A stretch of 64,000 bases of DNA from Cherax quadricarinatus (lineage: Eukaryota; Arthropoda; Malacostraca; Decapoda; Parastacidae), in the NCBI RefSeq assembly GCF_038502225.1, contig NW_027195407.1:1-64000 (forward strand), in the 5' to 3' direction. Positions 18,736-64,000 of this stretch are shown here, piece after piece. The notes below the pieces were generated by a model. That model made no database searches. It saw only the letters and a list, made by a program, of their open reading frames with translations, and was not told the origin of the DNA. Both the position numbers and the translations under genes were made by a program. Each line of letters begins with the position of its first letter. Position 1 is the stretch's first letter.

Positions 18736-19131
18736 ATTTATGTTTGTCATAGTGAGATATAAGTGTGGTTTCCAGGGTTACATTTCTAAGCCTGATGGTT
18801 ATGTTCACTGGGTTTAAAATTTCCTTGAAAGCCAGGATACCGAGCCCTTAGGATCTCGTTTTTAAGTAATTAGATTGGCACGTTGGTATCAACACAAAAT
18901 TTTTCTGAGATACATGTCAGTTCTTTTGGGACTGGCACATTACAGCAGCCTTATCCTTATTACTACTCTAGTCTTATTTTAGTCTCGGGTTCTTTAAATA
19001 ATTTACATAGCCTAGTATTGTACCGCTAATGTGGCATGTGGTGTATTATCTTGCATTTTGAGTGTGAACTTCACGATATGCAATGTTTTGAATGTTTGTA
19101 ATTCATGGTTAACATTAATATTTGATATCAT
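18736..19131 (+). other. Tx1-c 3' UTR, first part
   Basis: Non-coding sequence after the broken ORF2. No gene or known repeat recognised. It ends at the insertion site of the 681-bp hammerhead element. Confidence 0.5.
19117..19131. repeat. 15-bp TSD (left): AATATTTGATATCAT
   Basis: Exact copy at 19813-19827. The two copies bound the inverted hammerhead element. Confidence 0.9.
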
Positions 19132-19203
19132 TGAACATTAAAATGGTATAAAATACCGACAGGTTGTTAGGTAAGACACATATGCAACAGTTAGGTATCT
19201 TTA

Positions 19204-19245
19204 TTATGAAACGTTTCGCCTACACAGTAGGCTTCTTCAGTCAAG
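19204..19245 (-). ncRNA. Hammerhead-like motif, left arm of Rz-1
   Basis: Mirror copy of the motif at 19733: core CTGAAGA plus an extra A, hairpin GCCTAC-TGT-GTAGGC, then GAA and palindromic ACGT. Confidence 0.6.
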
Positions 19246-19574
19246 TACAGAAAAGTTGATAGAAGCAGAAGATACTTGAAGACGATGTAATCAGTCCATC
19301 ACCCTTAAAGTTTTGAGGTGGTCAGTCCCTCAGTCTGGAGAAGAGCATTGTTCCATAGTATGAAACAATATGGAGAAGAAGTGACAGGATGGAGCTTTTT
19401 ATACCATTTTAATGTTCAATCTGTCAGACACTGCAACACAAGGGTATCTTGGTACAGACCTGCAATCAACTTCGACAACTTCCACTAGTGAGAGGGGCTG
19501 GGTTTGAGAGGGACCTAACCTTTCAACATCTGAGTTCTTACCTCTCCTAGTGGCCTACGTCTCACCTCCTGGCG

Positions 19575-19582
19575 CTATAAAA
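19575..19582 (+). promoter_or_regulatory. TATA-like box of Rz-1 right arm
   Basis: TATAAAAG preceded by GGCGC. A related TATATAAG box recurs at matching positions in the 418-bp units of Rz-2 and in Rz-3. It could drive RNA polymerase II transcription through the hammerhead. Confidence 0.4.
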
Positions 19583-19732
19583 GCTCCATCCTGTCACTTC
19601 TTCTCCATATTGTTTCATACTATGGAACAATGCTCTTCTCCAGACTGAGGGACTGACCACCTCAAAACTTTAAGGGTGATGGACTGATTACATCGTCTTC
19701 AAGTATCTTCTGCTTCTATCAACTTTTCTGTA

Positions 19733-19774
19733 CTTGACTGAAGAAGCCTACTGTGTAGGCGAAACGTTTCATAA
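19733..19774 (+). ncRNA. Hammerhead-like motif, right arm of Rz-1
   Basis: Stem I TGA/TCA (three pairs), core CTGAAGA (fits C3-U-G-A-N7-G8-A9), an extra A, stem II GCCTAC-TGT-GTAGGC (six pairs), GAA, then ACGT followed by T as the cleavage-site base. The self-complementary ACGT would form stem III either as a tiny hairpin or between two RNA molecules. Stem I is the weakest of the copies. Confidence 0.6.
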
Positions 19775-19812
19775 TAAAGATACCTAACTGTTGCATATGT
19801 GTCTTACCTAAC

Positions 19813-19827
19813 AATATTTGATATCAT
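19813..19827. repeat. 15-bp TSD (right)
   Basis: Identical to 19117-19131. Confidence 0.9.
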
Positions 19828-23445: not shown

Positions 23446-26400
23446 TTACGACACTAATGCGCGCAACCCTCTCACAGTCATACCTCTATACGATACCGGA
23501 AAATCTCTGGCCCATCTACGTCCATACACTACCTCATTTATACACTTTGTTCTATAGAAGTGTCCTGCTAAAGCCCTTATTCGTTCCTCCCCCCCCACTT
23601 CCCTCATCACCCACGATATATAGACATAATCTACCACTAAATACATGACGGCCCTCCTCACACTATCTCCCACTCCCTCTATATCCAAACTCAGTGCCCT
23701 TAATACCACTAACCCACTCCCACCCACCATATCCAACACTCTGCGTAACCATAGTCGTGCCCGCTCGATATGCTCACAGAAATACACCACATGATATGCT
23801 GTTTCCTCCCCCCCACACAAAACACAACATTGACACTTCAAAATTCCCATCTGATACAGTCGTACTTTAGTTGGCAAAATCCCATGTAAAAACCTATACA
23901 TAGTTTCCTTCACCCTTGACTTCACCCGTAACTTACTGAAGTCTCCCCAGATTCGTGTCCAATTATATAATGGAAAAACTGTCTCCCCTTCCAACACCTC
24001 TTGAACCCTTTCCAACCTCCCCAAAACACACGCCGTTACATTTTCCGGATTTCTTACTTGTAATAAGTATCTCAACATACTCGTACACTCCTCTAATTCC
24101 CTACCCCCCCACCACCGCCTCACATCTTCCATCACTTTTCTCACTCTGACACCACGTTCCCCGCCCAATCTCAGATAACAATGCTTCACGTACATGCTCT
24201 TCATTCTGCTACCCAAAGGAATTAAACCTAAACCCCCTTTTGCCAGCGGTGTCATTACAACCGTTTGCCTCAGCCAATGACAACCATATCCCCATATAAA
24301 ATTCAGTACTTTCCTTTGCACTTGCCGCACATCTTTCGCCATCAATGGGTACACCACAGCCACGTGCCACAATTTAGGATAAATGAGTGTATTAACTACA
24401 ATGACTCTCTGTTGTATAGTCAAACCACTCGTTCTTATTCCCCCTAACCTAAGCAATACTCTTTGCACTACCCTTTTAGAATTTGCCTCTCGAGTCTCCT
24501 GCGCTGCCCCTCTGTACAATACTCCACAAATTTTTAACTGCTCTACTACCTGCCATCCAAACTTTTTTCCCAGTTCCCCTCCCACCCATGACCCCACCTC
24601 CAGTAATTTCGACTTCTCACTATTAACATTCATACCTGTTGCTCCACTAAATATTTCAACAATTCTACTTACATTCTTTAACCCCTCCTCTCCCCCCACT
24701 AAGACCGTCGTGTCATCTACATAGCCAACTATACCCGTAGCACCCCTAAGTCTTACCTCCCCCTCACTTACACCAACATTTATCAACCTATATAATGGGT
24801 CTTGCAGACATGCAAATAGGATCTGAGACATGGGGCATCCCTGCCTCAGCCCCCTACCCATACTAACCATCTTCCCCACCCTTCCATTAATTTGCACTCG
24901 TATTTCTGCACCTCTATATAAAGTTTCCGCCCACTGCACGATTTCCTCACCGAACCCAATCTTCCTCATAATCATCCATAATGTCTCTCTCTCTACACAA
25001 TCATAAGCCGCCTTCCAATCCAACGCAAGAACACCTCCACCATCCATCCTACGCTCCTCTATATAACCTTTTATCCTCCCATGCCCACTAAACATTGTTC
25101 TCCCTGGCACACCCATCTGTCCCCCATCTATAACCTTCCCAATTACTTTACGCATTCTATTACCTAACACCCTGGCAAACAATTTATAATCCCTGCACAT
25201 TAATGATAAACCTCTATAATCTAGGATGCTATTCTGTACTTCCCCCTTTGGAACCATAACTACTACACCTGTCCTTTGTGTTAGACTCATGCTTCCCTTA
25301 TCCTTCATTACATTCATCAACTGCACCAAGAATTCCTTCATGACATCCCAGTTGCTCAAATAAAATTCATTTGGGATTCCATCTATCCCAGGTGCTTTCC
25401 CGACACTCATCCCTTTTAATGCCGTCCTCACTTCCTCTTCATCTATAGGCCCTTCTATCATCGCTCTATCTGCTGACTCTAGGTTGCTCTGTATCCCCTT
25501 CTCTAAAATCTTCATATCCGCTATCTTTCTGTTTCCCCCTCTCATATATATCTCAAACCACTTATCAGCATAACCACTCATACTTTCCGTAGTTACTAAC
25601 CTCTGTCCCATCGTATACCCTCCCACATCCGTATGTACGTCCAAATTCATCATAGTCATTGTCTTCTGTCGCGTCTTTAATCGCCGCAAAACACAGGCGG
25701 ATGGCTTATCTCCCCATAAAACATCTTCCAATCCACCTCTCATTCTCTCACCATCAAATCTTGCATTCTGCATTTCCATTAATTGCGCTTTGATGCCCTC
25801 AATCTCTTGTACTGGATAAACCCCACTAAAACCTTCATAGCACTGTTTCAGCAGCCCTTCCAAATATCTCTGTAAGCCATATTTCCATTGACTTACCTCC
25901 TTTCCTTTCCTCATATAAAAATTTTTGATTCCTGGTTTGGCATATTCCTCCCACCATCGTAGGATATCACCTCCTTTTCTCCCCATGGTCCACTCCTTTG
26001 TCCACCACTCAACAAAACTATCACCGTCTTCCTGCTCATCTAACAATCTCACATTAAGTTTCCAATAACTCATGTAACGCTTTGGTAAACCTCCCCATCC
26101 CACATCCACGACCACTCCTCTATGATCTGAAAACACTACATTTATAGTTTCTGTAGTAGCCACCTGTAACCCGGGAGAAGCATAAATACGATCTAGTCGT
26201 GCCGCGTATCCTCTCCTCACATATGTATGCTCCACGTTCCACCCCTCCCCCCTCACAACATCCGTTAAGCCAACTCCCCCTAAAACATCTCGTAGAACCC
26301 CCAGAACACACCCTGCATCCCTCGGCTCCACATCTTTTCTACGTATCACACTATTCCAATCCCCTCCAAATAATGAATAAACAGGTAAACCCCGCATATG

Positions 26401-26790
26401 ATAAATTAGTGTGTCCCTTACAAATTCCTCTTTAACACGTCTATTACTGTCCGCCGGCATGTATACACTCACAAAACACACACGTACCCCACCCCATGTC
26501 CCATCCACCCTCGCTACTCTCCCATCTCCCCCTTCTTCCCAATGTAACAATTGGAACGGACTGGTCTCAGCTATTAAAACTGCAGCACCTCCCTTAAGCT
26601 TCCCAGTATACCCAGCATAAACTTTATATCCATCTACCGACAAATCCCTTCCATACCTGAAATTATGCTCTTGTAAAAATACTACTTGTATGCCAAGTCT
26701 CTTTAAAAAAACACTAAATATCTTACGCTTTACATCAGCCCTTAGGCCGTTAACATTTAAGGTTAGACACTTAAAAATGCTATCGGGGGC
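23446..26790 (-). CDS. Tx1-e ORF2: endonuclease-reverse transcriptase
   Basis: Open from 26790 (after TAA at 26791-26793), overlapping the end of ORF1 by 28 nt in the -1 frame. The first conserved motif LTLNVNGLRADVK precedes any ATG; a possible non-AUG start at 26643 would lose it. EN motifs: FLQEHNF, LFGGDWNSVI, RLDRIYA, FSDHRGVVVDV. RT: GKAPGIDGIPNEFYL, YRGLSLMCRDYKLFAR, MGVPGRTMFSGHGRIKGYIE, LALDWKAAYDCVERE, GLRQGCPMSQILFACL, catalytic GYVDDTTVLV. C-terminal CVLCGGEETAYHVVYFC (C-x2-C-x8-H-x4-C) and tail YRTKCINEVVYGRRW. All key residues are present and no stop is seen. Confidence 0.9.
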   Translation of the reverse strand, partial: APDSIFKCLTLNVNGLRADVKRKIFSVFLKRLGIQVVFLQEHNFRYGRDLSVDGYKVYAGYTGKLKGGAAVLIAETSPFQLLHWEEGGDGRVARVDGTWGGVRVCFVSVYMPADSNRRVKEEFVRDTLIYHMRGLPVYSLFGGDWNSVIRRKDVEPRDAGCVLGVLRDVLGGVGLTDVVRGEGWNVEHTYVRRGYAARLDRIYASPGLQVATTETINVVFSDHRGVVVDVGWGGLPKRYMSYWKLNVRLLDEQEDGDSFVEWWTKEWTMGRKGGDILRWWEEYAKPGIKNFYMRKGKEVSQWKYGLQRYLEGLLKQCYEGFSGVYPVQEIEGIKAQLMEMQNARFDGERMRGGLEDVLWGDKPSACVLRRLKTRQKTMTMMNLDVHTDVGGYTMGQRLVTTESMSGYADKWFEIYMRGGNRKIADMKILEKGIQSNLESADRAMIEGPIDEEEVRTALKGMSVGKAPGIDGIPNEFYLSNWDVMKEFLVQLMNVMKDKGSMSLTQRTGVVVMVPKGEVQNSILDYRGLSLMCRDYKLFARVLGNRMRKVIGKVIDGGQMGVPGRTMFSGHGRIKGYIEERRMDGGGVLALDWKAAYDCVERETLWMIMRKIGFGEEIVQWAETLYRGAEIRVQINGRVGKMVSMGRGLRQGCPMSQILFACLQDPLYRLINVGVSEGEVRLRGATGIVGYVDDTTVLVGGEEGLKNVSRIVEIFSGATGMNVNSEKSKLLEVGSWVGGELGKKFGWQVVEQLKICGVLYRGAAQETREANSKRVVQRVLLRLGGIRTSGLTIQQRVIVVNTLIYPKLWHVAVVYPLMAKDVRQVQRKVLNFIWGYGCHWLRQTVVMTPLAKGGLGLIPLGSRMKSMYVKHCYLRLGGERGVRVRKVMEDVRRWWGGRELEECTSMLRYLLQVRNPENVTACVLGRLERVQEVLEGETVFPLYNWTRIWGDFSKLRVKSRVKETMYRFLHGILPTKVRLYQMGILKCQCCVLCGGEETAYHVVYFCEHIERARLWLRRVLDMVGGSGLVVLRALSLDIEGVGDSVRRAVMYLVVDYVYISWVMREVGGEERIRALAGHFYRTKCINEVVYGRRWARDFPVSYRGMTVRGLRALVS

Positions 26791-29520: not shown

Positions 29521-30795
29521 ATGGCGCAGCCGGCAAGAAGAAGGGTAAACACTATCGGCATAGAAGTGGTGCGTGGGGCTGTGCATGCCCACTCAGCTCA
29601 AGTTTTATTACCTGCCATCATCAGGGACACATACGGCATTGCCAACGAAGAGCTGTATGGTGTAGCCTTGAACGGGGCATATAGAATTTTTGTGAAATTT
29701 CTCAATGCAAGTGTATATGAGGACATAGTCGCCAGGTTCCAAGATCTTTGTGTACCAGTGAATCCTGCAGTGACGGTAAGGCTACATGATGTGTCCCGCC
29801 ATTATACATGGGTGAAGATAAGAAATGTACCCTTTGAGGCTAATGAGGCAGACCTACGTGCTGCCTTCGAGAAGTTTGGGACTGTTCATATGGCGACATT
29901 GGGGAAATGGAAGGAAGGATCGTATTCTGGGATGCCTGAAGGAAGTTTTTCCTTAAAAATGACATTGAGGCATCCTATTCCTTCCTATATTTTCCTAGAA
30001 GACTTCAGGACTCAAGTAATGGTGACTTACGCAGGGCAACAACGTACCTGTCGATTATGCGGTGCCTATGATCACATTGCTGCGCAGTGTGTTAAACAAC
30101 AGGGTACACAGGCGAAGGAGCAGCATAAGGAGGCATCAGAGGACCTTGAGACGTTGGATTTGGCACGACCTGAGTCGGTTTCCTTGAACAAGGCTTGGAG
30201 TGTGGAGGTCGAGGAGGCCTTGAGGGAGGAAGAGTGTGTAACTCTTCCGAGAGAGACATGCACTGCCAGGCAGGCACCGGAGACCAAAGATGTGGTGTCA
30301 CTGGGTGAGGACAGAGCCGTGGAGGCTACCATTGATTCAGTCCTCCACGACCTGTTAGGGACCCCAGGAGAGGTCACAGTTGAGGGGCTTGTGGGTGCCC
30401 TGGATGCTGCTGGGGTTCCAGGTGGTGAGAGGGGGGGAGGCATGTCAGAGACCCAGGTTGAGGCTGGGTTGCAAATTGGCACGGTGGTGGCGGAAGTGCA
30501 CGGGGATGGCTTCCAGGTGGAGGCGGGAAGAAAGGCTCGAGTGTCACGGAAGAGAGCGGCAGTGCCCTCGAACGTGGACGATGTGGCTGTGCTCACTCCG
30601 GCACAGCGTTCGGGCAAAAAGATGTGGGCTGAAGTGGTTGAGCATGGACCTGGGGGGTCCAGGGGCAAGGGGCATGTGAAAGCAGATCACAGAATGGTGA
30701 TTGAAGATCATGGGCGTATAAAGGGGAAGGGGGATAAAGGTGGTGCAATACGTAAAGGCAAACCTCCATTGACAAATTCAAGAGTCTCTCTATAA
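29521..30795 (+). CDS. Tx1-g ORF1: Gag-like zinc-knuckle protein
   Basis: 424 codons; ATG in the context AAAATGGCGC. Residues 1-155: conserved N-terminal region (RRVNTIGIEVVRGAV, YGIANEELYGVALNGAYRIF, DVSRHYTWVKIRNVPFEANE) with an RRM-like fold predicted around the last block. Residues 177-190: CCHC knuckle CRLCGAYDHIAAQC. The rest is acidic and Gly/Arg-rich with VLTPAQRSGKKMWAEVV and a terminal KGKPP motif. Role: RNA binding in the retrotransposition particle. The final 40 nt overlap the ORF2 frame. Confidence 0.88.
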   Translation: MAQPARRRVNTIGIEVVRGAVHAHSAQVLLPAIIRDTYGIANEELYGVALNGAYRIFVKFLNASVYEDIVARFQDLCVPVNPAVTVRLHDVSRHYTWVKIRNVPFEANEADLRAAFEKFGTVHMATLGKWKEGSYSGMPEGSFSLKMTLRHPIPSYIFLEDFRTQVMVTYAGQQRTCRLCGAYDHIAAQCVKQQGTQAKEQHKEASEDLETLDLARPESVSLNKAWSVEVEEALREEECVTLPRETCTARQAPETKDVVSLGEDRAVEATIDSVLHDLLGTPGEVTVEGLVGALDAAGVPGGERGGGMSETQVEAGLQIGTVVAEVHGDGFQVEAGRKARVSRKRAAVPSNVDDVAVLTPAQRSGKKMWAEVVEHGPGGSRGKGHVKADHRMVIEDHGRIKGKGDKGGAIRKGKPPLTNSRVSL

Positions 30796-33700
30796 ATGTT
30801 AATGGTCTGAAAAATTCTAGGAAGTGTGAATGGTTTCATGAGATGCTCATTAGGTATGGTGTAGATGTAGTGTTTGTGCAAGAGCACAACCACAAGCCGG
30901 GTTGTATGTTGATGATTGAGGGGTATACTGTATATACGGCACACTCAACGAGATTGAAAGGAGGAGTGGCTATTTTGGTGAGGGAGGCTAGCCCGTTTAC
31001 TGTACATCATTGTGAGGAGGGGGGTGAGGGGAGGGTTATAAGAGTGGATGGAACATGGGGAAGAGATAAGATGTCTTTTGTGTGTGTTTATGGTCCGGCG
31101 GAGGGGGACAGTCGAGTGAAGAATGAGTTTGTACGTGAAGTGTTGGTGTATCACTTAAGGTCGCTTCCAGCATTAGCTGTGGTGGGAGGGGACTGGAATT
31201 GCGTTATACGCCGCAAGGATGTGGAACCTAGGGGAGCAGGATATTGTTCTGGTGTTCTGAGGGACCTGTTAACCGGGGTGGGGTTGGTGGATGTAGAGGG
31301 GGGGGCGGCGTGGGAGGTGCAGCACACCTTTGTGAGGCAGGGGTATGCTGCACGGCTGGACAGGATATACGTGACAAGGAAAGCTGTGGTGCGGAGTGTA
31401 AGGGTTTTGGATGTCTTTTTTTCTGATCATAGAGGTGTTTTGGTGGATTTGGGATGGGAGGGTCGGCCGAACAGGTATAAGAGTTATTGGAAATTGAATG
31501 TTCGGTTGCTTCAAGATGTTGAGGGGAGGGTCCTATTTGCACAATGGTGGAAAGACTTATGGGAAGGGATGGAAGTCAATGGGGATGTGTTGAGATGGTG
31601 GGATGTGACGGCGAAGACGAGGATTCGAGAGTTCTATGTCCGACAGGGAAGGCACGAGAATCAGTTGGCTTATGGGCTTATTAGGTATCTTGAGGGGCAG
31701 TTAAGGGAGTATCATGAGAGAGGAAGGGGGGGGATGGGAGCCCCTGTGGCTGACATAGAAGGAGTGAAGGAACGCCTAATGGAAGTGCAAAATGAGAGGT
31801 TTGATGCGGCAAGGGTTTTAGGGGGGTTGGAGGAGGTCATGTGGGGTGATAGACCATCGGCGTGTGTCCTGCGAGGGCAGGGGCACCGGCGCGTTGCAAT
31901 GGAAATGGTGGGTTTGAGAGTTCTTGAGGACATAGAGGGGTATAGGGAGGGACAAGATTTGGTGACAATGGAGGGGATGGGAGGGTATGTTGATTCTTGG
32001 CTTAGTACACATATGAGGAGTGTGGGTGTGAGAGAGGGGGCTTTAAGAGAGACAGGGGGATGGGTGCGGAGTGTGCTGGACAGGGACGACAGGGAACAGT
32101 TACAGGGGCCTATTGTGGAGGAAGAGGTGTGGACGGCTCTAATGAGTATGAGCAGGGGTAAGGCACCGGGGATAGATGGGCTGCCTGCGGAGTTTTACAT
32201 ACAGCATTGGGGAGTATTAAAAGATTTTTTGGTGCAATTATTTAATATCATAAAAGAGAGGGGTGCGTTAGGACCTTTGCAGGCGACAGCACTAGTAGTT
32301 TTGGTGCCAAAGGGTGAAAGTCAGTGCACAGTGAGAGATTACCGGATGATATCACTCATGTGTGCAGACTACAAACTTTTTGCAAAAATTTTGGGTAATC
32401 GTATAAAAAAGGTCATTGGAAAGGTAATAGTGAGGGGTCAATATGGGATTCTGGGGAGATCAATGTATGAGGGGCATGGGGTTATTAGAAGGTTTATTGA
32501 GGGTCCACAAGAGGGGGAACGTGGGGTATTGGCGTTGGATTGGAGAACGGCATATGACAGTGTCGAGAGGGAGGCTCTGTGGAGAATCATGGAGTGGCAA
32601 GGGTTCGGGGAGGACATTGTGAATTGGGCACGTACTTTATATCGGGGAGCTGGGATGTGTGTACAGATAAATGGGAGGGTGGGTTTGCATGTGAAAATGG
32701 GCAGGGGATTGAGGCAAGGTTGCCCGTTGTCACAAATATTATTTGCATGTTTACAGAATCCGTTTTATAGGGCAGTGGAAAGGTGCATACAGGAGGGGGT
32801 AAGGGAGGACTTACGAGGTGGGAGTCCCAGTATCATAGGTTACGTTGATGACACAACTGTCCTAGTGAGTGGGAGGGAGGGATTGGAGGGTCTGGAGAGA
32901 GTTATAGACGTTTTTGGGATGGCAACAGGTATGGCAGTGAATGTGCATAAATCTAAGCTCATGATATTGGGTGAATGGGATGGGCAGGAGGGCGGGGGTG
33001 GGGGGGTGAGGTGGAGTGTCGTGGACCGGGTGAAAATTTGTGGAGTTGTGTATATGGGTAATGCTCAGATGGCGAGGGAGAATAATTCAAAGGGTGTGGT
33101 AGATAGGGTATTGGGAAGATTGTCAGGATTGAGGCCGACACATCTTACGCTACACCAGAGGGTCATTGTGGTCAATGTGCTTTTGTACAGTAAAATATGG
33201 CATGTGGCAGCTTTGTACCCTTTGGTGTATGGGGATGTCCGGAGATTGTTGAGCAGAGTTTTCCGTTTTATCTGGGGTTCGGGATGCGATTGGTTGAAAA
33301 GAGAGGTGGTAACACTTCCGGTGGCCTTGGGAGGGCTGGGGTTAATTCATTTGGAAAGAAGGTTGAAGTGTGTATATGTGAAACATGGGTTGCTAAGGGC
33401 TCGGGGGGAAGGGAGTGGAGGGTTGGGGATGCTGCAGGGAGATCTTCGGAGATGGTGGAAGGGACAAGATTTGAGAGATGGTGAGGAGTTGTTGCGTCTA
33501 TTGATGATGGTCAGAGAGCCGAGAAACATGCGGGTAGGGTCCATGGAGAGGAAGATATGGCCTAGGGTGGTAGTGGCAACGGAAGGAGTGTACCCGATGT
33601 ACGCATGGGAAGACATTTGGGGCCGATTAAAAGGGTTACGCATCCGGCCACGCGTGAGGGAGGTAATGTATAGGTTTCTTCACGGAATATTGCCGTCTGG

Positions 33701-34115
33701 GGTTGTTTTACGAAATAGGCGAATAAGGGAGGGTGGGGTGTGTCAGGTTTGTGGGGTAGATGAATCAGCTTTTCATGTAGTTTATTTTTGTGAAAGCCTA
33801 GGGATTGTGCGGGAATGGTTAGGGAAAGTAATCCGGTATGTGGGGGGGAAAGGGTTGTCGGTTTTGAGAGCGCTTAGTTTAGATGTAGGTGGGGTTGGGG
33901 TAAAGGTTCAAAGGGCAGTGGCTTACTTAATGGTTGATTTTGTGTATATATCATGGGCAATGAGAGACAAAGGGGCGGAGGAACGTAGGATGGCCATAGC
34001 AGCATCCTTTTATAGAACAAAGTGTCGCAACAGGGAAATATATGGTAGGAGGTGGGAGAGGGATTTCTCGGAGGGCTACAGGGACTTTCTTTTGAGGGAT
34101 TTATGGTCTTTATAA
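30756..34115 (+). CDS. Tx1-g ORF2: endonuclease-reverse transcriptase
   Basis: The frame opens at 30756 (after TAA 30753-30755), in the -1 frame relative to ORF1. The first ATG (30843) lies downstream of SLSINVNGLKNSRK, the first EN motif. Numbering from that ATG: VQEHNH near 11, VVGGDWNCVI near 115, RLDRIYV near 173, FFSDHRGVLVDL near 193; RT with GKAPGIDGLPAEFYI, YRMISLMCADYKLFAK, GLRQGCPLSQILFACL and YVDD at 667-670; C-terminal CCHC at C967, C970, H978, C983; tail YRTKCRNREIYGRRW. No stop or missing catalytic residue is seen. EN nicks the target and RT primes from it; the zinc motif probably helps RNA or target binding. Confidence 0.92.
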   Translation, partial: RQTSIDKFKSLSINVNGLKNSRKCEWFHEMLIRYGVDVVFVQEHNHKPGCMLMIEGYTVYTAHSTRLKGGVAILVREASPFTVHHCEEGGEGRVIRVDGTWGRDKMSFVCVYGPAEGDSRVKNEFVREVLVYHLRSLPALAVVGGDWNCVIRRKDVEPRGAGYCSGVLRDLLTGVGLVDVEGGAAWEVQHTFVRQGYAARLDRIYVTRKAVVRSVRVLDVFFSDHRGVLVDLGWEGRPNRYKSYWKLNVRLLQDVEGRVLFAQWWKDLWEGMEVNGDVLRWWDVTAKTRIREFYVRQGRHENQLAYGLIRYLEGQLREYHERGRGGMGAPVADIEGVKERLMEVQNERFDAARVLGGLEEVMWGDRPSACVLRGQGHRRVAMEMVGLRVLEDIEGYREGQDLVTMEGMGGYVDSWLSTHMRSVGVREGALRETGGWVRSVLDRDDREQLQGPIVEEEVWTALMSMSRGKAPGIDGLPAEFYIQHWGVLKDFLVQLFNIIKERGALGPLQATALVVLVPKGESQCTVRDYRMISLMCADYKLFAKILGNRIKKVIGKVIVRGQYGILGRSMYEGHGVIRRFIEGPQEGERGVLALDWRTAYDSVEREALWRIMEWQGFGEDIVNWARTLYRGAGMCVQINGRVGLHVKMGRGLRQGCPLSQILFACLQNPFYRAVERCIQEGVREDLRGGSPSIIGYVDDTTVLVSGREGLEGLERVIDVFGMATGMAVNVHKSKLMILGEWDGQEGGGGGVRWSVVDRVKICGVVYMGNAQMARENNSKGVVDRVLGRLSGLRPTHLTLHQRVIVVNVLLYSKIWHVAALYPLVYGDVRRLLSRVFRFIWGSGCDWLKREVVTLPVALGGLGLIHLERRLKCVYVKHGLLRARGEGSGGLGMLQGDLRRWWKGQDLRDGEELLRLLMMVREPRNMRVGSMERKIWPRVVVATEGVYPMYAWEDIWGRLKGLRIRPRVREVMYRFLHGILPSGVVLRNRRIREGGVCQVCGVDESAFHVVYFCESLGIVREWLGKVIRYVGGKGLSVLRALSLDVGGVGVKVQRAVAYLMVDFVYISWAMRDKGAEERRMAIAASFYRTKCRNREIYGRRWERDFSEGYRDFLLRDLWSL

Positions 34116-38478: not shown

Positions 38479-38491
38479 CAACCTTACTCGA
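38479..38491. repeat. 13-bp TSD (left) of Rz-2: CAACCTTACTCGA
   Basis: Exact copy at 40443-40455. Confidence 0.9.
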
Positions 38492-38560
38492 TGTGTACGA
38501 ATGGTATATAATACCGACAAGATGAGAGTAAGACACATGTGCAACATCTGGGTATCTTTA

Positions 38561-38599
38561 TTGTAGACGTTTCGCCATCCAGTGGCTTTATCAATACAA
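38561..38599 (-). ncRNA. Hammerhead-like motif, Rz-2 unit 1
   Basis: Same 39-nt motif as 39532-39570, on the minus strand. Confidence 0.65.
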
Positions 38600-38978
38600 A
38601 TTCAAGGACATAACTTGAAGACAGTAGAACTATGTACAGAAGATGAGGTAATCAGTCCCTCAACCTAGGAGTAGGTGCGAACAGCACCATAGTCGTGGAG
38701 ATTCTGAAGCAGAAGAAAGAATCCTGGCGCTTATATAGTAACGTTAGGTGAAGCAGACGAGGGCAAATTCACTGGTAGGCGGGATTCCCCAGTGGAAGTA
38801 GGTCCTTCCCAAAGAGATGGGTTAGTTGTAGTAGTATTTGTCGTAGTCGTGAAGGTTATGTACATGTCCTCAGAATTAAGATTCCATGATGTTGCAGTGT
38901 CTGACAAGTTGTGTACGAATGGTATATAATACCGACAAGATGAGAGTAAGACACATGTGCAACATCTGGGTATCTTTA

Positions 38979-39017
38979 TTGTAGACGTTTCGCCATCCAG
39001 TGGCTTTATCAATACAA
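38979..39017 (-). ncRNA. Hammerhead-like motif, Rz-2 unit 2
   Basis: 418 bp from the previous one and identical in the motif, minus strand. Confidence 0.65.
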
Positions 39018-39531
39018 ATTCTATTACATAACTTGAAGACAGTAGAACTATGTACAGAAGATGAGGTAATCAGTCCCTCAACCTAGGAGTAGGTGCGAAC
39101 AGCACCATAGTCGTGGAGATTCTGAAGCAGAAGAAAGAATCCTGGCGCTTATATAGTAACGTCAGGTGAAGCAGACGAGGGCAAATTCACTGGTAGGTGG
39201 GATTCCCCAGTGGAAGTAGGTCCTTCCCAAAGAGATGGGTTAGTTGTAGTAGTATTTGTCGTAGTCGTGAAGGTTATGTACATGTCCTCAGAATTAAGAT
39301 TCCATGATGTTGCAGTGTCTGACAAGTTGTGTACGAATGGTATATAATACCGACAAGATGAGAGTAAGACACATGTGCAACATCTGACGTTACTATATAA
39401 GCGCCAGGATTCTTTCTTCTGCTTCAGAATCTCCACGACTATGGTGCTGTTCGCACCTACTCCTAGGTTGAGGGACTGATTACCTCATCTTCTGTACATA
39501 GTTCTACTGTCTTCAAGTTATGTCCTAGAAT

Positions 39532-39570
39532 TTGTATTGATAAAGCCACTGGATGGCGAAACGTCTACAA
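39532..39570 (+). ncRNA. Hammerhead-like motif, Rz-2 unit 3
   Basis: Stem I TTGTA (39532-39536) with TACAA (39566-39570). Core TTGATAA (39537-39543), where consensus is CTGANGA, so C3 is U and G8 is A, which can still pair. Extra A at 39544. Stem II GCCA-CTGGA-TGGC (39545-39557). GAA (39558-39560), self-complementary ACGT (39561-39564) and C39565 as cleavage-site base, giving the favoured GUC triplet. Whether the U3-A8 form cleaves must be tested. Confidence 0.65.
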
Positions 39571-39810
39571 TAAAGATACCCAGATGTTGCACATGTGTCT
39601 TACTCTCATCTTGTCGGTATTATATACCATTCGTACACAACTTGTCAGACACTGCAACATCATGGAATCTTAATTCTGAGGACATGTACATAACCTTCAC
39701 GACTACGACAAATACTACTACAACTAACCCATCTCTTTGGGAAGGACCTACTTCCACTGGGGAATCCCGCCTACCAGTGAATTTGCCCTCGTCTGCTTCA
39801 CCTGACGTTA

Positions 39811-39820
39811 CTATATAAGC
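39811..39820 (+). promoter_or_regulatory. TATA-like box in an Rz-2 unit
   Basis: CTATATAAGC, about 130 nt upstream of the hammerhead at 39950; repeated 418 bp later near 40229 and inverted in the minus units. Confidence 0.4.
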
Positions 39821-39949
39821 GCCAGGATTCTTTCTTCTGCTTCAGAATCTCCACGACTATGGTGCTGTTCGCACCTACTCCTAGGTTGAGGGACTGATTA
39901 CCTCATCTTCTGTACATAGTTCTACTGTCTTCAAGTTATGTCCTAGAAT

Positions 39950-39988
39950 TTGTATTGATAAAGCCACTGGATGGCGAAACGTCTACAA
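39950..39988 (+). ncRNA. Hammerhead-like motif, Rz-2 unit 4
   Basis: 418 bp downstream of 39532 with the same motif. Confidence 0.65.
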
Positions 39989-40367
39989 TAAAGATACCCA
40001 GATGTTGCACATGTGTCTTACTCTCATCTTGTCGGTATTATATACCATTCGTACACAACTTGTCAGACACTGCAACATCATGGAATCTTAATTCTGAGGA
40101 CATGTACATAACCTTCACGACTACGACAAATACTACTACAACTAACCCATCTCTTTGGGAAGGACCTACTTCCACTGGGGAATCCCGCCTACCAGTGAAT
40201 TTGCCCTCGTCTGCTTCACCTGACGTTACTATATAAGCGCCAGGATTCTTTCTTCTGCTTCAGAATCTCCACGACTATGGTGCTGTTCGCACCTACTCCT
40301 AGGTTGAGGGACTGATTACCTCATCTTCTGTACATAGTTCTACTGTCTTCAAGTTATGTCCTAGAAT

Positions 40368-40406
40368 TTGTATTGATAAAGCCACTGGATGGCGAAACGT
40401 CTACAA
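40368..40406 (+). ncRNA. Hammerhead-like motif, Rz-2 unit 5
   Basis: 418 bp downstream of 39950 with the same motif; the element ends 36 nt later at the TSD. Confidence 0.65.
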
Positions 40407-40442
40407 TAAAGATACCCAGATGTTGCACATGTGTCTTACTCT

Positions 40443-40455
40443 CAACCTTACTCGA
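40443..40455. repeat. 13-bp TSD (right) of Rz-2
   Basis: Identical to 38479-38491. Confidence 0.9.
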
Positions 40456-40734
40456 GAAATAAGTAGATTTTAAAAATTGAATGCCCAAGATACTCTGCTA
40501 CCAGACCTTTTTATGTTCATTTGCTTAATTTGTTTATTAGTAATAACATAAAGTATACACAGATTTATGTAACCTTCAATAAAATAGGTATACTAAGCTT
40601 AAATAAAAAAAAGTGCTTCGGGAAAATTATGGGACGATTCTGTAACAGATGGAGGAATTTTTATGACGATGAAATGATTCATCTGTAGTCGTTACTATAC
40701 TTTTCTATAAGAAGAAACACAGAGAACGTCTTTT

Positions 40735-42455
40735 CTCGTGTTACATTTTCTATTCAAATTGAATATATGTCGGATTTCCGACATTACCCTAACTCCGATA
40801 GATTTCGAAAAAGCCATTGACAACATGCCCATGCACTCAGCCCCGGGCCCAGACTCGTGGAACTCTGTTTTCATTAAGAACTGCAAGAAAATCCTCTCGC
40901 GTGCCCTAAGTACACTATGGAGGAGGAGCTTGGACATAGGTGAAATTCCACAGTCACTTAAAACGACAGATATAGCCCCACTCCATAAAGGTGGCAGCAA
41001 AGCACTAGCTAAGAACTATAGACCAATAGCTCTTACGTCTCACATCATAAAAATCTTTGAAAGAGTGCTAAGAAGCAGGAATGCAAATCACCTGGATTCC
41101 CAAAATCTGCTCAATCCAGGGCAACATGGGTTCAGGGTAGGTCGCTCCTGCCTCTCACAACTACTGGATCACTATGACATGGCCTTGGATGCACTGGAAG
41201 AAAATCAGAATGCAGATGTAATATACACAGACTTTGCAAAAGCATTTGACAAATGCGATCATGGCGTAATAGCCCATAAAATACGTGCTAAAGGAATAAC
41301 TGGGAAATTGGGGAGATGGATCTTCAACTTCCTAACAAATCGAACACAAAGAGTAGTGGTCAACAGAGTTAAATCGGAGGCTGCCATAGTGAAGAGCTCT
41401 GTTCCACAAGGCACAGTACTCGCCCCCATCTTATTCCTTATCCTCATATCAGACATAGACAGAGATATACATCACAGCACCGTATCATCCTTTGCGGATG
41501 ATGCTAGGATCTGCATGAGGCTGTCATCTGCTGAAGACGCGGTTAACCTCCAAGAAGATATAAACAAAGTTTTCCAGTGGGCAACGATAAACAATATGAT
41601 GTTCAATGAGGACAAATTCCAACTACTCCGTTATGGAAAACTGGAGATAATAACTAGAACAGAGTATACTACAGACTCTGGCCATACAATAGAGCGGAAA
41701 AATAATGTAATGGACCTGGGAGTAGTAATGTCTGAGGATCTCACTTTCAAGGATCACAACAGTGCCACGATCGCACGTGCAAAGAAAATGATAGGATGGA
41801 TAATGAGAACGTTCAAAAAGAGAGATGCCAAGCCAATGATGATTCTTTTCAAATCACTTGTTCTCTCTAGGCTGGAATACTGCTGTACATTAACATCTCC
41901 ATTCAAAGCAGGTGAAATCGCAGATCTAGAGAGTGTACAGAGATCCTTTACTGCACGTACAAGTTCTGTCAAGCACCTTAACTACTGGGAACGCTTGGAA
42001 GCACTTGACTTGTACTCGTTGGAACACAGGAGGGAGAGATATATCATAATTTACACTTGGAAAATCTTGGAAGGAATGGTCCCAAATCTGCACACAGAAA
42101 TCACTCCCTGCGAAAGTAAAAGACTTGGCAGGTGATGCAAAATGCCCCCAATAAAAAGTAGGGGCGCCATTGGTACACTAAAGGAAAACACCATAAGTGT
42201 CCGGGGCCCAAGACTGTTCAACAGCCTCCCATCAAGCATTAGGGGAATTGCCAATAAACCCCTGGCTGCCTTCAAGAGAGAGCTGGACAGATACCTAAAG
42301 TCAGTGCCGGATCAGCTGGGGTGGGGCTCGTACGTTGGACTGTGTGCGGCCAGCAGTAACAGCCTAGTTGATCAGGCCCTGATCCATCGAGAGGCATGGT
42401 CATGGACCGGGCCGCGGGGGCGTTGATCCCCGGAATAACTTCCAGGTAACCTCCA
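40735..42455 (+). pseudogene. CR1-b ORF2 (CR1/L2-type LINE), 5' truncated, one nonsense codon
   Basis: The frame runs from about 40738 to 42426 with one in-frame TGA at 42133-42135, where CGA may be expected (LGR-stop-CKMPPIK). RT motifs: HSAPGPDSWNSVF, NYRPIALTSHIIKIFE, HGFRVGRSCLSQLLDHYD, YTDFAKAFDKCDHG, SSVPQGTVLAPILFLI and catalytic SFADDARIC. The C-terminal part has LEYCCTLTSPF and ISVRGPRLFNSLP. EN is missing by 5' truncation. The 3' end has a GC-rich stretch (GACCGGGCCGCGGGG) and two TCCAGGTAA repeats, a typical short 3' repeat tail of this group. It cannot transpose itself. Confidence 0.82.
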
Positions 42456-43689: not shown

Positions 43690-43945
43690 TGAAGCCGTTG
43701 AAGAATTGAGACACTTATGCAACACATGGGAATCTTTATTGAAGAAACGTTTCGCCACACAGTGGCTTCATCAGTCCAATACAAAGTAGAAATGGGTAAG
43801 GAGAGGAGAAGTTTGAGGTAATCAGTCCCTCAACCTGGATAGGACCAGAGAGGTGGCTTATATACTGCAGTTAGATGATGTGAAACAGGAGGAGGTGGGA
43901 TCATAGTGGGACCTGCCACTAGTGTAAGTAGGTCGTCGCCCATAG
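43690..43945 (-). mobile_element. Rz-3: single hammerhead/PLE terminal-repeat unit
   Basis: On the minus strand: a TATATAAG box (plus strand 43857-43864), the GAGGGACTGATTACCTC stretch shared with Rz-2, a hammerhead-like motif, AATAAAG and the TTGCATAAGTGTCT stretch that follows the motif in the other units. No TSD identified. Confidence 0.6.
43741..43790 (-). ncRNA. Hammerhead-like motif of Rz-3
   Basis: Core CTGATGA (perfect consensus) plus an extra A, stem II GCCAC-TGT-GTGGC, GAA, ACGT, then T. Stem I is weak: GGA with TCT (two pairs and a G-U). Confidence 0.6.
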
Positions 43946-51246: not shown

Positions 51247-51287
51247 TTTGACTGAAGAAGTCTACTGTGTAGGCGAAACGTTTCGGA
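51247..51287 (+). ncRNA. Hammerhead-like motif in the PLE-b 5' terminal repeat
   Basis: Stem I TTTGA with TCGGA (three Watson-Crick and two G-U pairs), core CTGAAGA, extra A, stem II GTCTAC-TGT-GTAGGC (one G-U), GAA, ACGT, T at the cleavage site. Hammerheads in PLE terminal repeats are an established feature of eukaryotic PLEs. Confidence 0.65.
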
Positions 51288-52532: not shown

Positions 52533-53384
52533 GTTGACGACATTCTCCTCATAACTTCAAGGCGCTTCAACCTTCAAGCTCTCCAAGACAAGCTCAACCA
52601 GGTCGAGCCCTTAATCCAGTTCACACTTGAAGTCAACAACACTCTTCCTTTCCTTGATGTTCTTCTCTGCAAAACTGACCATGAACTTCGTTTTAAAGTC
52701 TATCGAAAACCAACCAGCCAAAACGATCTTCTACTCTTACCACGACACCAAAACTAAACGTGGTGTAATTATAGGCTTCTTCCTGCACGCACTCAAAATC
52801 TGCAGCAATGAGTACCTTGAGTATTTTCTAAACTCCACTATCCTCGTCACTTCATCAGAGACTGCAGACGGCGGGCATCAAACATCAACACACCCAGAGA
52901 AGACACTGCCGAGAAGAGGTACATAATCCTCCCCACCAACCCCATTGCCAAACATGTTTCCAACATCTTTTCCAATACATCATTCCAAGTATCTACCTCC
53001 ACAACCACGACCATCAAGGACATCACCAGTAGTAGACAGGACAAGCTTCCATCCTCTGCAGGGGTATACATAATCCCTTGTAATGACTGCAACAAATTAT
53101 ACGTGGGCGAAACATCAAGAGATCTCCAAACACGCATTTCAGAACATCAATACGCAAGCAGGACTGACGATACAAGGAATGCCTGTGTACAACATCGCAA
53201 TTCACACAACCATTTAATTAACTACAGAAACTCAAGATTTATCGCCACAAAAGACAACACTCAATACCAAAGAATCCTGGAATCATCGCTTATCTCTATA
53301 ACCAACAATTTCAACCAGAACAATGGCTTCTATAACATAGCTGAACCACTTGCCAAGAAACTTCTTCATCGCTATCCCACATAA
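52533..53384 (+). pseudogene. PLE-b RT (catalytic part), thumb and GIY-YIG region
   Basis: The frame continues VDDILLITSRRFNLQALQDK, with LEVNNTLPFLDVLLCKTDHE and FKVYRKPTSQND, then stops (near 52757 and beyond) and frameshifts. It resumes with EDTAEKRYIILPTNPIAKHV and the nuclease region: SSAGVYIIPCNDCNKLYVGE (GIY as GVY, YIG as YVG), TSRDLQTRISEHQYASR, NGFYNIAEPLAKKLLHRYPT ending at 53384. PLE nucleases of this type nick DNA for primed reverse transcription. The stops make this copy inactive. Confidence 0.8.
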
Positions 53385-53568: not shown

Positions 53569-53684
53569 TAATAAAGTTGGTAGAATTACCGACAATATGT
53601 AAAGTAAAAGGACACAAGTGCAACTAATGTGACATTTATTGTGGCAACGTTTCGCTCTCCAGGAGCTTTATCAAGCCATTACCA
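53569..53684 (-). mobile_element. Rz-4: 116-bp hammerhead fragment insertion
   Basis: Bounded by a 13-bp TSD. On the minus strand it begins TGGTAATGGC, directly enters a hammerhead-like motif, continues with AATAAATG and a TTGCACTTGTGTCC stretch and ends ACCAACTTTATTA. No protein frame. It shows that a unit starting a few bases upstream of the ribozyme was inserted as DNA with a TSD. Confidence 0.75.
53642..53678 (-). ncRNA. Hammerhead-like motif of Rz-4
   Basis: Stem I TGGC with GCCA (four pairs), core TTGATAA (U3 and A8), extra A, stem II GCTC-CTGGA-GAGC, GAA, ACGT, T at the cleavage site. Both stems differ in sequence from Rz-2 yet pair perfectly. Confidence 0.65.
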
Positions 53685-58947: not shown

Positions 58948-60167
58948 ATGGAGGAATACCAGTTTTGGATGAATGCTATAAGTAAGTTAGGAATAACAGG
59001 GAAAAATTTAGAATCTTTCATTAGTGCTAAGATCCAGGAAAGACTTGAAAGAGAGAGAATTGAGAGAGAAGAGAGACAGTTATAAAGGGAAAGAGAAGAA
59101 GAAAAGGAGAGAGAGAGAATCGAAAGAGAAGAGAAAAAGGAGAGAGAGAGAGAATCGAAAGAGAAGAGAAAAAGGAGAAAGAGAACCTTGAAAAACAGGA
59201 GAAAAAGGAGAGAGAGAGAATTGAGAGAGAAATCCAAGAAAGACAGTTAGAAAGAGAAAGAGAAGACAAAAAGGAGCGTGATAGACTTGATCGTGAAGAA
59301 AGAGCTAGAGAACGTGAGGAACAGGCTAAAATACATGAGGAACAGGCTAAAATACGTGAGGAACAGGCTAAAATAAGAGAACTTGAGGAAAGAGCAAAGG
59401 ATAGAGAAAAAGCTAGAGAACGTGAGGAAAAAGCTAGAGAACGTGAGGAAAAAGCTAGAGAACTTGAGTTAATAGAGAGAGAAAAGGATCGCGAGCTCGA
59501 AAAATCTCGCCTTGAATTAGAGAATAAAAAGTTAACTCTTACACAACAACAATTAGAGGAAGGAGTAATGGAACAACGTGCAGTCAGTGCACATATTCCA
59601 ACACCTAATTTACCTCCCTTCACAGAGGGGGAAGACATAACTTTATACATTATCAGGTTTGAAAATACTGCTACCCTCTGTGAATGGCCTGCTGACACCT
59701 GGGCTACCAGGTTAGGAATGTTATTTTCTGGTACAGCCTTGAATATCTATGCAACTTTGTCGCAGGATATCATATGTAATTATAACCTACTGAAGAAGGC
59801 AATCCTTAAAGCATATCAAAAAACCACTAATTCTTACAGGAAAGATTTCAGGTATGCCACCTTACAGCCTGGCCAGAACTTTCAGCAGTTACAGGTAACA
59901 CTCTTTCGTTTGCTCGACTTTTGGATAGAGAGTTCAGGAATTGATCACAGTTATGAATCTCTTAGAGACTTCATGGTTGCTGACTAGTTCCTGACAGCTC
60001 TTCCCCATCAGATACGAACATTCATCAGAGAACGTAACCTGATTAAAGCTGAGGAAGTTGCTGAGGCTGCTGACCTGTATGCTGAGACTCACAATTCCTA
60101 TAAAGACCTAAAGGGATCGAACCCTAAGGGCAAGGGTTCATCAGACCTTAAGAAATCAAAGCCTCTA
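58948..60167 (+). pseudogene. Gag of the Gmr1-like element, broken
   Basis: ATG at 58948: MEEYQFWMNAISKLGITGKN, then AKIQERLERERIE and a TAA at 59083-59085. A long Glu/Arg-rich coiled-coil region follows (59086-59560), where a duplicated GA-rich segment shifts the frame. The capsid-like domain is in the second frame: PPFTEGEDITLYIIRFENTA, WATRLGMLFSGTALNIYATL, FRYATLQPGQNFQQLQVTLF, a TAG at 59985-59987, then FLTALPHQIRTFIRERN. This resembles SCAN-related capsids known from Gmr1-like Gag. From there the frame runs into the knuckle and Pol without a stop, so Gag and Pol were probably one polyprotein. Confidence 0.8.
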
Positions 60168-62213
60168 ATGGAAAGTAAAATGACTTCTTTTATTCCTGTT
60201 TGTCATTTGTGTGGTGTTAAGGGACATAAACGTCCAGATTGTCCTTCTAGGAAGGTCCAAAAAGTTGGAAGATGTTTTAAAGACTGTAATGACCAAGCAC
60301 CCTTCTGTTCAGGAACAGTTAATGGACTTAATATATCTACCATTTTACGAGACACTGGATGCACATGTATAGTCATTTCTGATAAGCTGTTCCCTAACCT
60401 TAAAGAAACTCATTCCTCTGCTATACTTTCAGACTACTTGGGCCGTACGGACACTTTTCCTACCATCCGTTGTTACATTAGGTCTAAATGGTTCACAGGT
60501 TGGTCTGAAGCCGTACTAGCTCCCATCACTTCTTACTCCGTACTAATAGGTAATGTAAAAGATGCCATTCTTCCTTCTGAGGTTGACCTTTCATCACTAA
60601 AGATGGACATAAGTGTTTCAGATCCTCTTTCTGTAGAGTCAGAGAAGTCACTCGAAAGTTCAGATGAGACAATGTCTCGTGAGATTCGAGTGGGATTAAA
60701 AACCAGTGATGATACTCTCGAAAGCGAGGTAGTAGGATCACCGGTTCACTTGTTAGATGAAAGTGAAGATATCACCTCCGATACCATAAATGTCTTGACT
60801 AGGGCTCAGACCAAAGCCCAGGCTTCTCCTACTGTCCATCCTTTGATTTTCCCTGACTTTAACCCTTTAGATATATCGAAGGACTCCTTTGTCAAGTTAC
60901 AACGTAATTGCCCTTCTCTTCAGAATTGCCATAATGCCGCTAAACAAAATCAAGTGATCCAAAGGAAAAACTTTTCATATAAATCTGAATATATAAAAAG
61001 TATCTTGTACAAGTCAGTATTCAAACTAAATTCAGATGAGATAGACTATTCCATCTTAGTTGTTCCAAGTCAATGCAGAGAGACTGTTCTTAAAATGGCT
61101 CATGAGCTGCCAGTGGCCGGACATTTCTCGCATCGTAAAACCTTAAATAAAATTAGGGAAACCTATTTTTGGCCAAAAATGTCCTCAGATGTCACTACCT
61201 ATTGTAGATCGTGTAAAGTTTGCCAACTGTCATCCTCCCGAGGTACCAGGCGAGTACCTATGGTCAAAATGCCAATCTTTACGGAACCGTTTGAAAGAGT
61301 AGCTATTGACATCGTTGGTCCTTTATCTCCACTTTCATCTGAGGGACATAGATATATATTAACATTAGTTGATTATGCTTCGAGTTTCCCTGAAGCCATA
61401 CCCTTAAAGACCATAACCACTACAGAGGTGGCTGAAGCCCTTTTGTCCATCTTCTCCAGAGTGGGCATCCCTAGAGAAATTTTGTCTGACCGTGGGACAC
61501 AATTCACATCTGACTTAATGCAACAATTATACCAACTTCTGGGAGTGAAGCCTCTCTTCACCACACCCTATCATCCCAGCTGTAATGGGAAGATTGAGCG
61601 CCAGTATTCGATTCTCAAGTCCATTTTAAGGAAACTTTGCTCCCTTAAACCTAAGGAGTGGCATTGTTACCTACCCTGTGCTTTGTTTGCCATGAGGGAA
61701 GTTCCCAGTGACTCTTTGGGGTTTTCACCTTTTGAACTTCTCTATGGTAGACAGGCCAGAGGCCCATTGTCCATCCTTCATGACTTATGGACTAATGAGG
61801 AGGTAAATGCTGAGGTTCAGTCTTCTTACCAGTTTCTCCTTGACCTTAGATCCAAACTTGAGGAGACCTTTGACATAGTTTCGAAAAACTTAAGTTTGTC
61901 AATGGACCAGTACAAAACCTATTTTGATTCCAAAAGTCAGAGGAGAAGTTTTAAAGTAGGGGATGAAGTTCTTGTACTTTTGCCGATCAAGTCAAATAAA
62001 TTGTTAGTAGCATGGAAAGGTCCATATAAAGTATTAAAAATTTGTGGGAAAGTTGATTACCTCATAGAAGTCAAGGGGAAACCTAAGCTTCATCATATCA
62101 ACATCCTTAAGAAATATTACCGAAGAAATTCGGTTAACTGCCTTTATAACTTTGACTTAGTTTTTCCACACGAACTTGATAAGACAACCGAAGAATGTAG
62201 TGTGCGTAATTGA
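60168..62213 (+). pseudogene. Pol part 1: zinc knuckle, protease, integrase
   Basis: 681 open codons in the capsid frame; the ATG at 60168 is internal and not a true start. Numbered from there: CCHC knuckle at C12, C15, H20, C25; protease DTG at 62-64 (LRDTGCTCIVIS); a long spacer; HHCC zinc region HELPVAGHFSHRKT ... CRSCKVCQ; integrase core D381 (AIDIVGP), D441 (SDRGTQF), E477 (NGKIERQ), i.e. D-D-35-E; C-terminal GPY/F module (FKVGDEV ... WKGPYKVL ... HHINILKKYY). The integrase inserts element cDNA into the host genome. All catalytic residues are present, but the polyprotein is broken upstream and downstream. Confidence 0.85.
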
Positions 62214-63590: not shown

Positions 63591-64000
63591 CCTTGTATTC
63601 TAGTGGATTTATGGGTTGAAAGCTTCACTTTTGACCAATAATAAACTCAGTCTTTTCAGCCTTGCTCTATATTGATTGTTGTAATAATCACCACATCTTT
63701 TAGGTATTGTACTTATCATGGAGAGTGATTGTTTAAGCAGTGGGTAACCTGTCTATCTTTTCAGCTTGGATGACAGAGAGGGTCACCTGTCAATCAACGA
63801 GAAGAACTGGTGGAGATGGACTAACGTCCTGAGACTTCCCCTTTTTGGATTTAAATACCTGTACACCTGTATGAAATTGCAGGACGTAACCCCTTATCAT
63901 TGCAGCGGTAAAGAACCTGCTTTCCTGTCATTGGGATATAATACTCAAGGCTATACTGTGAAGAACTAGCCAGTGGGTCGTAACCAACACCTGCGACCCC
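63587..64000 (+). repeat. Partial 3' LTR (starts mid-LTR)
   Basis: From GCCTGCCTTGTATTC onward it matches 57676-58088 of the 5' LTR. The first 350 bp of the LTR and the end of the RNase H region are missing, with GCCTGCC shared at the joint. The LTR runs off the window. Confidence 0.85.

Follow-up and report, generated by a model that had tools for sequence, protein, structure and literature searches.

Metazoan non-LTR retrozymes are non-coding tandem repeats of 150-450 bp that carry hammerhead ribozymes, have target-site duplications (TSDs) of >4 bp and co-occur with Penelope-like elements (PLEs); the parts of Cervera and de la Pena (2020, PMC7229834) cited here also propose circular RNA templates, with PLEs as the likely helpers that copy retrozyme circles. 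PLEs have inverted pLTRs with a tail on one of them, and self-priming was proposed for them in the part of PMC3846280 on which we draw. A lizard PLE protein was shown in vitro to cut and extend both target strands, with its start at two neighbouring internal sites of the RNA whose positions match the optional tail; no difference in start site between the strands was observed, which counts against a division of sites between the strands of the kind described below (PMC11167929).

In the same portions of these papers, what mobilises animal retrozymes has until now been a proposal (PMC7229834), while the insertion mode of PLEs, ascribed to self-priming, and the origin of inverted repeats with a one-sided tail have so far been open (PMC3846280). 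The genome of Cherax quadricarinatus holds thousands of young copies of an element with two fixed start sites and readable TSDs, which makes all three questions testable.

Structure of the array and its unit

The window, i.e. the whole stretch of 64,000 nucleotides of contig NW_027195407.1 that was analysed, contains an arm of 418-bp hammerhead units on the minus strand joined to an arm of the same units on the plus strand, both lying between exact 13-bp repeats. This layout had been described in an earlier note and was confirmed in the sequence, as was the claim of one compact hammerhead-like motif per unit: five motifs were found, two on the minus and three on the plus strand. The box TATATAAG that the note had placed in two plus spacers is present, but with three copies in the plus arm and two in the minus arm. 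Units are numbered from position 39566, the base 3′ of the predicted cleavage site (unit position 1); S and L stand for the two outer-end sites treated below.

38479..38491, no strand: left TSD CAACCTTACTCGA, 13 bp, exact
38492..39386, minus strand: left arm, 2.1 units, outer end at unit 74 (L), inner end at unit 16
38566..38599, minus strand: minimal hammerhead, core UUGAUAA (U3-A8), predicted cleavage at the low-coordinate end
38984..39017, minus strand: minimal hammerhead, from the motif scan
39384..39386, no strand: inner junction, 3-bp microhomology CTG, read from the sequence
39384..40444, plus strand: right arm, 2.5 units, inner end at about unit 234-237, outer end at unit 43 (S)
39532..39565, plus strand: minimal hammerhead, from the motif scan, predicted cleavage after C39565
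39616..39628, plus strand: hairpin GGTAT-TAT-ATACC, unit 51-63, between the S and L sites
40034-40046 (plus) and 38503-38515, 38921-38933, 39339-39351 (minus): the same hairpin in the other units
39812..39819, plus strand: TATA box TATATAAG, unit 247-254; also at 39394 and 40230 (plus), 38730 and 39148 (minus)
39844, plus strand: predicted transcription start, the A in TCAG, unit 279, 32 nt past the first T of the TATA box
39950..39983, plus strand: minimal hammerhead, from the motif scan
40368..40401, plus strand: minimal hammerhead, from the motif scan
40443..40455, no strand: right TSD CAACCTTACTCGA, exact copy, its first 2 bases also readable as unit 42-43

The two full plus units that lie side by side are identical, with a period of 418 bp, and the longest frame of the unit is without a Pfam match. 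At the inner junction BLAST lengthens the overlap to 6 bp with one mismatch. LINE-type open frames of ∼1,100 residues are found elsewhere in the window at 10032-13343 (−), 23446-26790 (−) and 30756-34115 (+); the frame at 30756-34112 (+), the one that was checked, contains Exo_endo_phos and RVT_1 domains. Another LINE reverse-transcriptase frame (RVT_1, 40711-42135, +) directly adjoins the array, and adjoining frames at 59064-63619 (+) read, in translation, like an LTR-retrotransposon gag-pol polyprotein.

The ribozyme of each full unit is TTGTA-UUGAUAA-A-GCCA-CUGGA-UGGC-GAAACGUC/UACAA (slash, predicted cleavage site), and its stem III, the two-base palindrome ACGU, has no loop. The motif scan demanded core, stem II and stem I, with a core pattern written after this family had been seen; it found 10 such motifs in the window, five of them outside the array, and none in 40 order-1 Markov shuffles. 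Rfam called no hammerhead, either at the gathering threshold on the whole window or at E 10 on the array. MIR821 matches in the Rfam searches were discarded, being the array palindrome itself. Because stem III lacks a loop and Rfam is silent, we file the element as retrozyme-like and not as a canonical retrozyme; the canonical type I hammerhead, with stem III and loop-loop contacts, is absent from the unit.

A relaxed scan of the window and loci L009-L044 found core bases 3 and 8 to be U-A in 213 copies (9 distinct sequences), C-G in 42 (15 distinct), U-G in three (one distinct) and G-C in one (one distinct). Hammerheads with U3-A8 in place of C3-G8 are natural and active in vitro, according to the part of Perreault et al. 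(2011, PMC3088659) cited here; they have this pair in common with ours, where it stands in PLE-type minimal motifs belonging to three or more repeat families. Other repeat families contribute additional minimal hammerheads to the window, at 43746-43777 (−), 51247-51282 (+) and 53646-53678 (−), with the cores CUGAUGA, CUGAAGA and UUGAUAA. A PLE hammerhead in L032:1300-1750 has the core GUGAUCA, i.e. G3-C8, the reverse of the usual C3-G8 pair.

The RNA 5′ end is expected at about unit 279, because unit 247-254 is TATATAAG and unit 279 is the A of TCAG. The hairpin, as GGTAT-NNN-ATACC at +51 to +66, is kept in related families, and two copies have GGTTC-NNN-GAACC, changed on both sides; its place between two start sites resembles the PLE tail. 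AATAAA, which served as a filter in the hairpin scan, stands at unit positions 4-10, and at most ∼10 nt past the predicted cleavage site in the families inspected. It precedes both S and L and is a possible polyadenylation signal.

Copies in the genome

The exact 39-nt ribozyme has 15,858 matches (7951 and 7907 by strand) in the 3.95-Gb genome, and a reversed control pattern has none in the same 3.95 Gb. Among the first 100 ribozyme places listed, opposite-strand neighbours <1 kb apart are (−,+) in 24 cases and (+,−) in none, same-strand neighbours within 1 kb number nine, and tail-to-tail (+)(−) neighbours 1-4 kb apart number two. In 43 of the 67 clusters in these 100 places the ribozyme matches are on one strand only; ends were read in inverted pairs.

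Two sets of loci were used. Set A consists of 36 loci including the window, the best matches of a similarity search whose query contained the junction side of the window; 30 of these loci gave 32 inverted pairs. Set B, which was not so picked, takes every locus of the list of 100 that has (−,+) neighbours <1 kb apart, 24 in all, and gave 26 inverted pairs. Some loci, such as L023, L024, L037 and L040, have one main arm only, which counts against a two-sided mode of insertion.

A genome search for more arrays with TSDs of their own, as the earlier note had advised, thus returned many copies with independent TSDs, and an assembly artefact is unlikely for that reason. The note's picture is supported in that the element is non-coding, retrozyme-like, arrayed in tandem, bounded by a TSD and inserted in one event. 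Its view that the layout is unusual is not: palindromic arrays are common in this genome, and the layout is the ordinary product of this element's insertion.

Outer ends

S ends lie at about unit 43-47 and L ends at about 73-77 (nominally S 43 and L 74, 31 nt apart); in diverged subfamilies, where the alignment stops earlier, S ends read 37-38. Both outer ends fall into these classes in 43 of the 58 inverted pairs of sets A and B, and 41 of these 43 pair an S with an L end (binomial p 2e-10). Judging from the ends, S and L appear to be used together, one per side, in nearly every readable insertion. Each side has a different fixed start site at its outer end, an indication that priming took place twice; the single copying event with a strand switch suggested in the earlier note is not supported.

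TSDs of ≥9 bp flank 40 of the 58 pairs, against a chance level of 13 in 400 random placements. Among these 40 pairs, 36 are S/L, with TSDs of 12-16 bp, four have one end outside the windows, and none is S/S or L/L. At least one end lies outside the S and L windows in 15 of the 58 pairs, including the four with a good TSD (L020, unit 378; L028, unit 55; L061, unit 63; second pair of L064, unit 85). The left arm of L020 thus starts at neither S nor L, yet the TSD has 13 bp. Both S/S pairs (L019 and L046) are without TSD.

Set B was fetched after the S/L rule had been seen in set A, and the first end windows (S 36-50, L 70-80) were broadened to S 33-50 and L 70-82 once set B had been seen. Set B alone gives 22/23 S/L with the widened windows and 20/21 with the first ones, where L045 and L052 drop out. 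L009, read as S/L in the first test, is counted as unclassified, its left end not being joined across a nested insertion. When right ends were permuted in set A, the observed count was reached in 4e-5 (first windows) or 1.5e-4 (widened windows) of trials.

A second related family follows the same pattern, with 5/7 pairs S/L, and 4/4 among those with TSD; the remaining two (L037 and L043), one S/S and one L/L, have none. One member lies in the window:

19131..19814, no strand: second-family element, head-to-head, L on the left and S on the right, 15-bp TSD AATATTTGATATCAT just outside

In L019:1840-1860 and L037:6930-6985, two different families meet directly at their S ends, tail to tail and without a TSD; possibly two RNAs were joined in one event.

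Inner junctions

Inner ends are spread over the unit, mostly differ between the arms and are joined with microhomology. Of the 25 BLAST overlaps in set A that are not negative, 20 measure ≥2 bp, compared with 16% expected for random joins. With both sets combined and the transcription-start class left out, 31 of 50 overlaps are ≥2 bp and 11 are negative (extra or mismatched bases).

Both arms end at unit 276-279 in 8 of the 26 pairs of set B and one arm alone in none of the 26; in set A both arms do so in no pair and one arm in two. That 8 of all 58 pairs end both arms there is consistent with a transcription start at unit 279. Joins at this position are nearly blunt or, in our reading of the sequence, overlap by the self-complementary AGA-T-TCT; they are taken as two cDNAs, each of which ran to the end of a linear transcript. 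Opposite ribozymes recur at spacings of 254 and 260; snap-back hairpins were considered as a general mechanism for this and were rejected, because both arms end at the predicted transcription start and the outer ends are S and L.

PLEs of the same genome

The window also contains pieces of PLE reverse transcriptase, whose best protein match is named Cherax quadricarinatus, and the following fragment:

52821..53381, plus strand: PLE GIY-YIG endonuclease fragment (Pfam PF01541), a member of the proposed partner family

Of 56,579 first-look candidates obtained with this fragment as query, 150 were scored; all 150 listed match, with open frames up to 813 aa. Endonuclease pairs <4 kb apart are (−,+) in nine cases and (+,−) in none among the matches listed. 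A TATA-like box, a hammerhead and AATAAA stand 3′ of the endonuclease frame in L013, L028 and L032; the hairpin then follows in L013 (cut by the locus end) and in L032, and L028 ends close to the S position.

From the nine inverted PLE pairs, three with short spacing were picked and fetched, and all three copies read have one S end (∼+44) and one L end. The L ends run through the hairpin to ∼+73-77, as fixed by the TSD where there is one; the TSD is 12 bp in L069 and 11 bp in L071, and none was seen for L070. The same end footprint is present in 3/3 PLE copies read, and PLEs may mobilise the element. The left arm of L012 has a 570-bp insertion (L012:1188-1757) that starts with CATAAGAACATAAGAACGAAGGAACACTGCAGAAGG, a stretch similar to the 3′ untranslated part of the PLEs.

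Mechanism of insertion

We consider it very probable that the element derives from PLEs, is non-autonomous and retrozyme-like, and enters its target by target-primed reverse transcription from both sides, not by way of one strand switch. The 418-bp unit would combine a TATA promoter, a minimal hammerhead, AATAAA and a hairpin tail between the reverse-transcription start sites S and L. A PLE reverse transcriptase with a GIY-YIG endonuclease, presumably acting in trans, would make a staggered cut in the target, and each exposed target 3′ end would anneal by a few bases at S or L. The annealed ends would be extended 5′-ward along the element RNA, one side from S and the other from L, so that both strands would be first-strand cDNAs; their joining by short microhomology would leave a (−)arm and a (+)arm between TSDs of 12-16 bp.

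A broader proposal is tentative, and about as apt to fail as to hold: PLE-type insertion may in general be bilateral, the strands dividing S and L between them without classical second-strand copying, and the internal start may let circles made by the hammerhead give arrays of up to 21 units per arm. If the start is internal, the enzyme can do without an RNA 3′ end, and circles could therefore be copied for many laps. Circular RNA templates, presumably formed after ribozyme cleavage, would account most simply for homogeneous arrays.

It is quite possible, though we rather doubt it, that tandem arrays were copied from linear multi-unit transcripts and not from circles. L068, whose two-unit arms both end at the transcription start, suggests a two-unit linear template, and units are mixed in the arrays of L030, L035 and L037. 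Yet only 4 of 53 arms >418 nt end near the transcription start, two of them being those of L068, and units differ far less within arms (146 of 19,680 informative comparisons, 0.74%) than between loci (43,620 of 656,227, 6.6%; the right arm of L041, which has an internal deletion, is left out), a contrast that homogeneous source arrays or unequal crossing-over could also produce. Many locus-private variants, moreover, stand in every unit, such as T at unit 143 in 21/21 units of the C96 right arm. Such variants are often common to both arms (L009, L013, L015, L036 and L042). The arms of one locus differ at 263 of 7,191 comparisons, including L034 (109 of 657), whose arms may be separate insertions.

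In inversions of L1 elements, attributed to twin priming, head-to-head layout, a TSD and junction microhomology are found together, and the inverted part begins at an arbitrary internal position. An L1-like process, with a single linear RNA as template for priming from both target ends, at an internal position for the second, would give these same features here, and S and L do lie on one RNA; we hold it to be unlikely, since both starts are fixed, at a distance of 31 nt, and both arms often exceed that spacing in length. The present copies also differ from L1 inversions in lacking poly(A) and in that the inverted form is common, not a minority. Twin priming is a special case of the two-sided priming favoured here, not its opposite.

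Self-priming, in which the cDNA folds back and copies itself, was put forward for rotifer Penelope elements in the cited part of PMC3846280. Palindromic inner junctions do exist, the inner ends being ≤10 nt apart in 13 of 58 pairs, eight of these at the predicted transcription start. The other 45 pairs have inner ends >10 nt apart, however, and an arm made by self-copying would have the same outer end as the first one, the opposite of S/L; S/S and L/L are correspondingly rare among TSD-bearing copies (none in the 40 checked). The arms of C96, L022 and L039 carry unlike template variants. All this makes snap-back very improbable.

A change of strand or template by a single reverse transcriptase partway along a concatemer is extremely improbable: such a switch would yield a palindromic layout inside one TSD pair, as seen, but predicts one outer start site, and 41 of 43 pairs have two, of different kinds. 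A fold-back DNA transposon, an inversion after insertion or an assembly artefact, which long inverted arms with a TSD might bring to mind, is scarcely conceivable given independent TSDs in dozens of loci, arbitrary arm lengths and termini that differ (S versus L) where a fold-back or TIR DNA transposon would have matching inverted ones.

Comparison with known systems

The short non-coding tandem units resemble the metazoan retrozymes of PMC7229834, in the parts of it that we cite, and 418 bp lies within their range of 150-450 bp. The hammerheads of retrozymes are mostly of canonical type I in those parts, whereas the motif here is of the minimal PLE type, with a stem III that has no loop; inverted arrays or an analysis of insertion ends are not described there.

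With PLEs, as far as the cited parts of PMC3846280 and PMC11167929 describe them, the element has in common a TATA-bearing terminal repeat, a hammerhead, the head-to-head inverted pLTR, a short TSD, a ∼30-bp tail on one inverted pLTR and reverse transcription that starts at two adjacent internal sites. It differs in that the 418-bp unit is without the reverse-transcriptase and GIY-YIG ORF present in PLEs of the same genome. As in a non-autonomous PLE derivative, a minimal hammerhead stands in a promoter-bearing terminal repeat and the optional tail of ∼30 nt is found at one of the two inverted ends (41 of 43 pairs S/L, 31 nt apart). Those parts of the two papers describe neither the strict pairing of an S with an L end nor the class with both arms at the transcription start, and no two-sided PLE model was found in the literature after 2024, among open-licence papers seen mostly at the level of listings.

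Our data fit all the observations in the cited parts of PMC11167929, PMC3846280 and PMC7229834; the joint use of S and L is not predicted by self-priming. Mobilisation of retrozymes by PLEs and inverted pLTRs with a one-sided tail are already known or proposed, and the S + L rule is the addition made here. If the rule of one S and one L holds, the second strand in PLE insertion would be made on RNA, unlike in the accepted scheme for LINEs.
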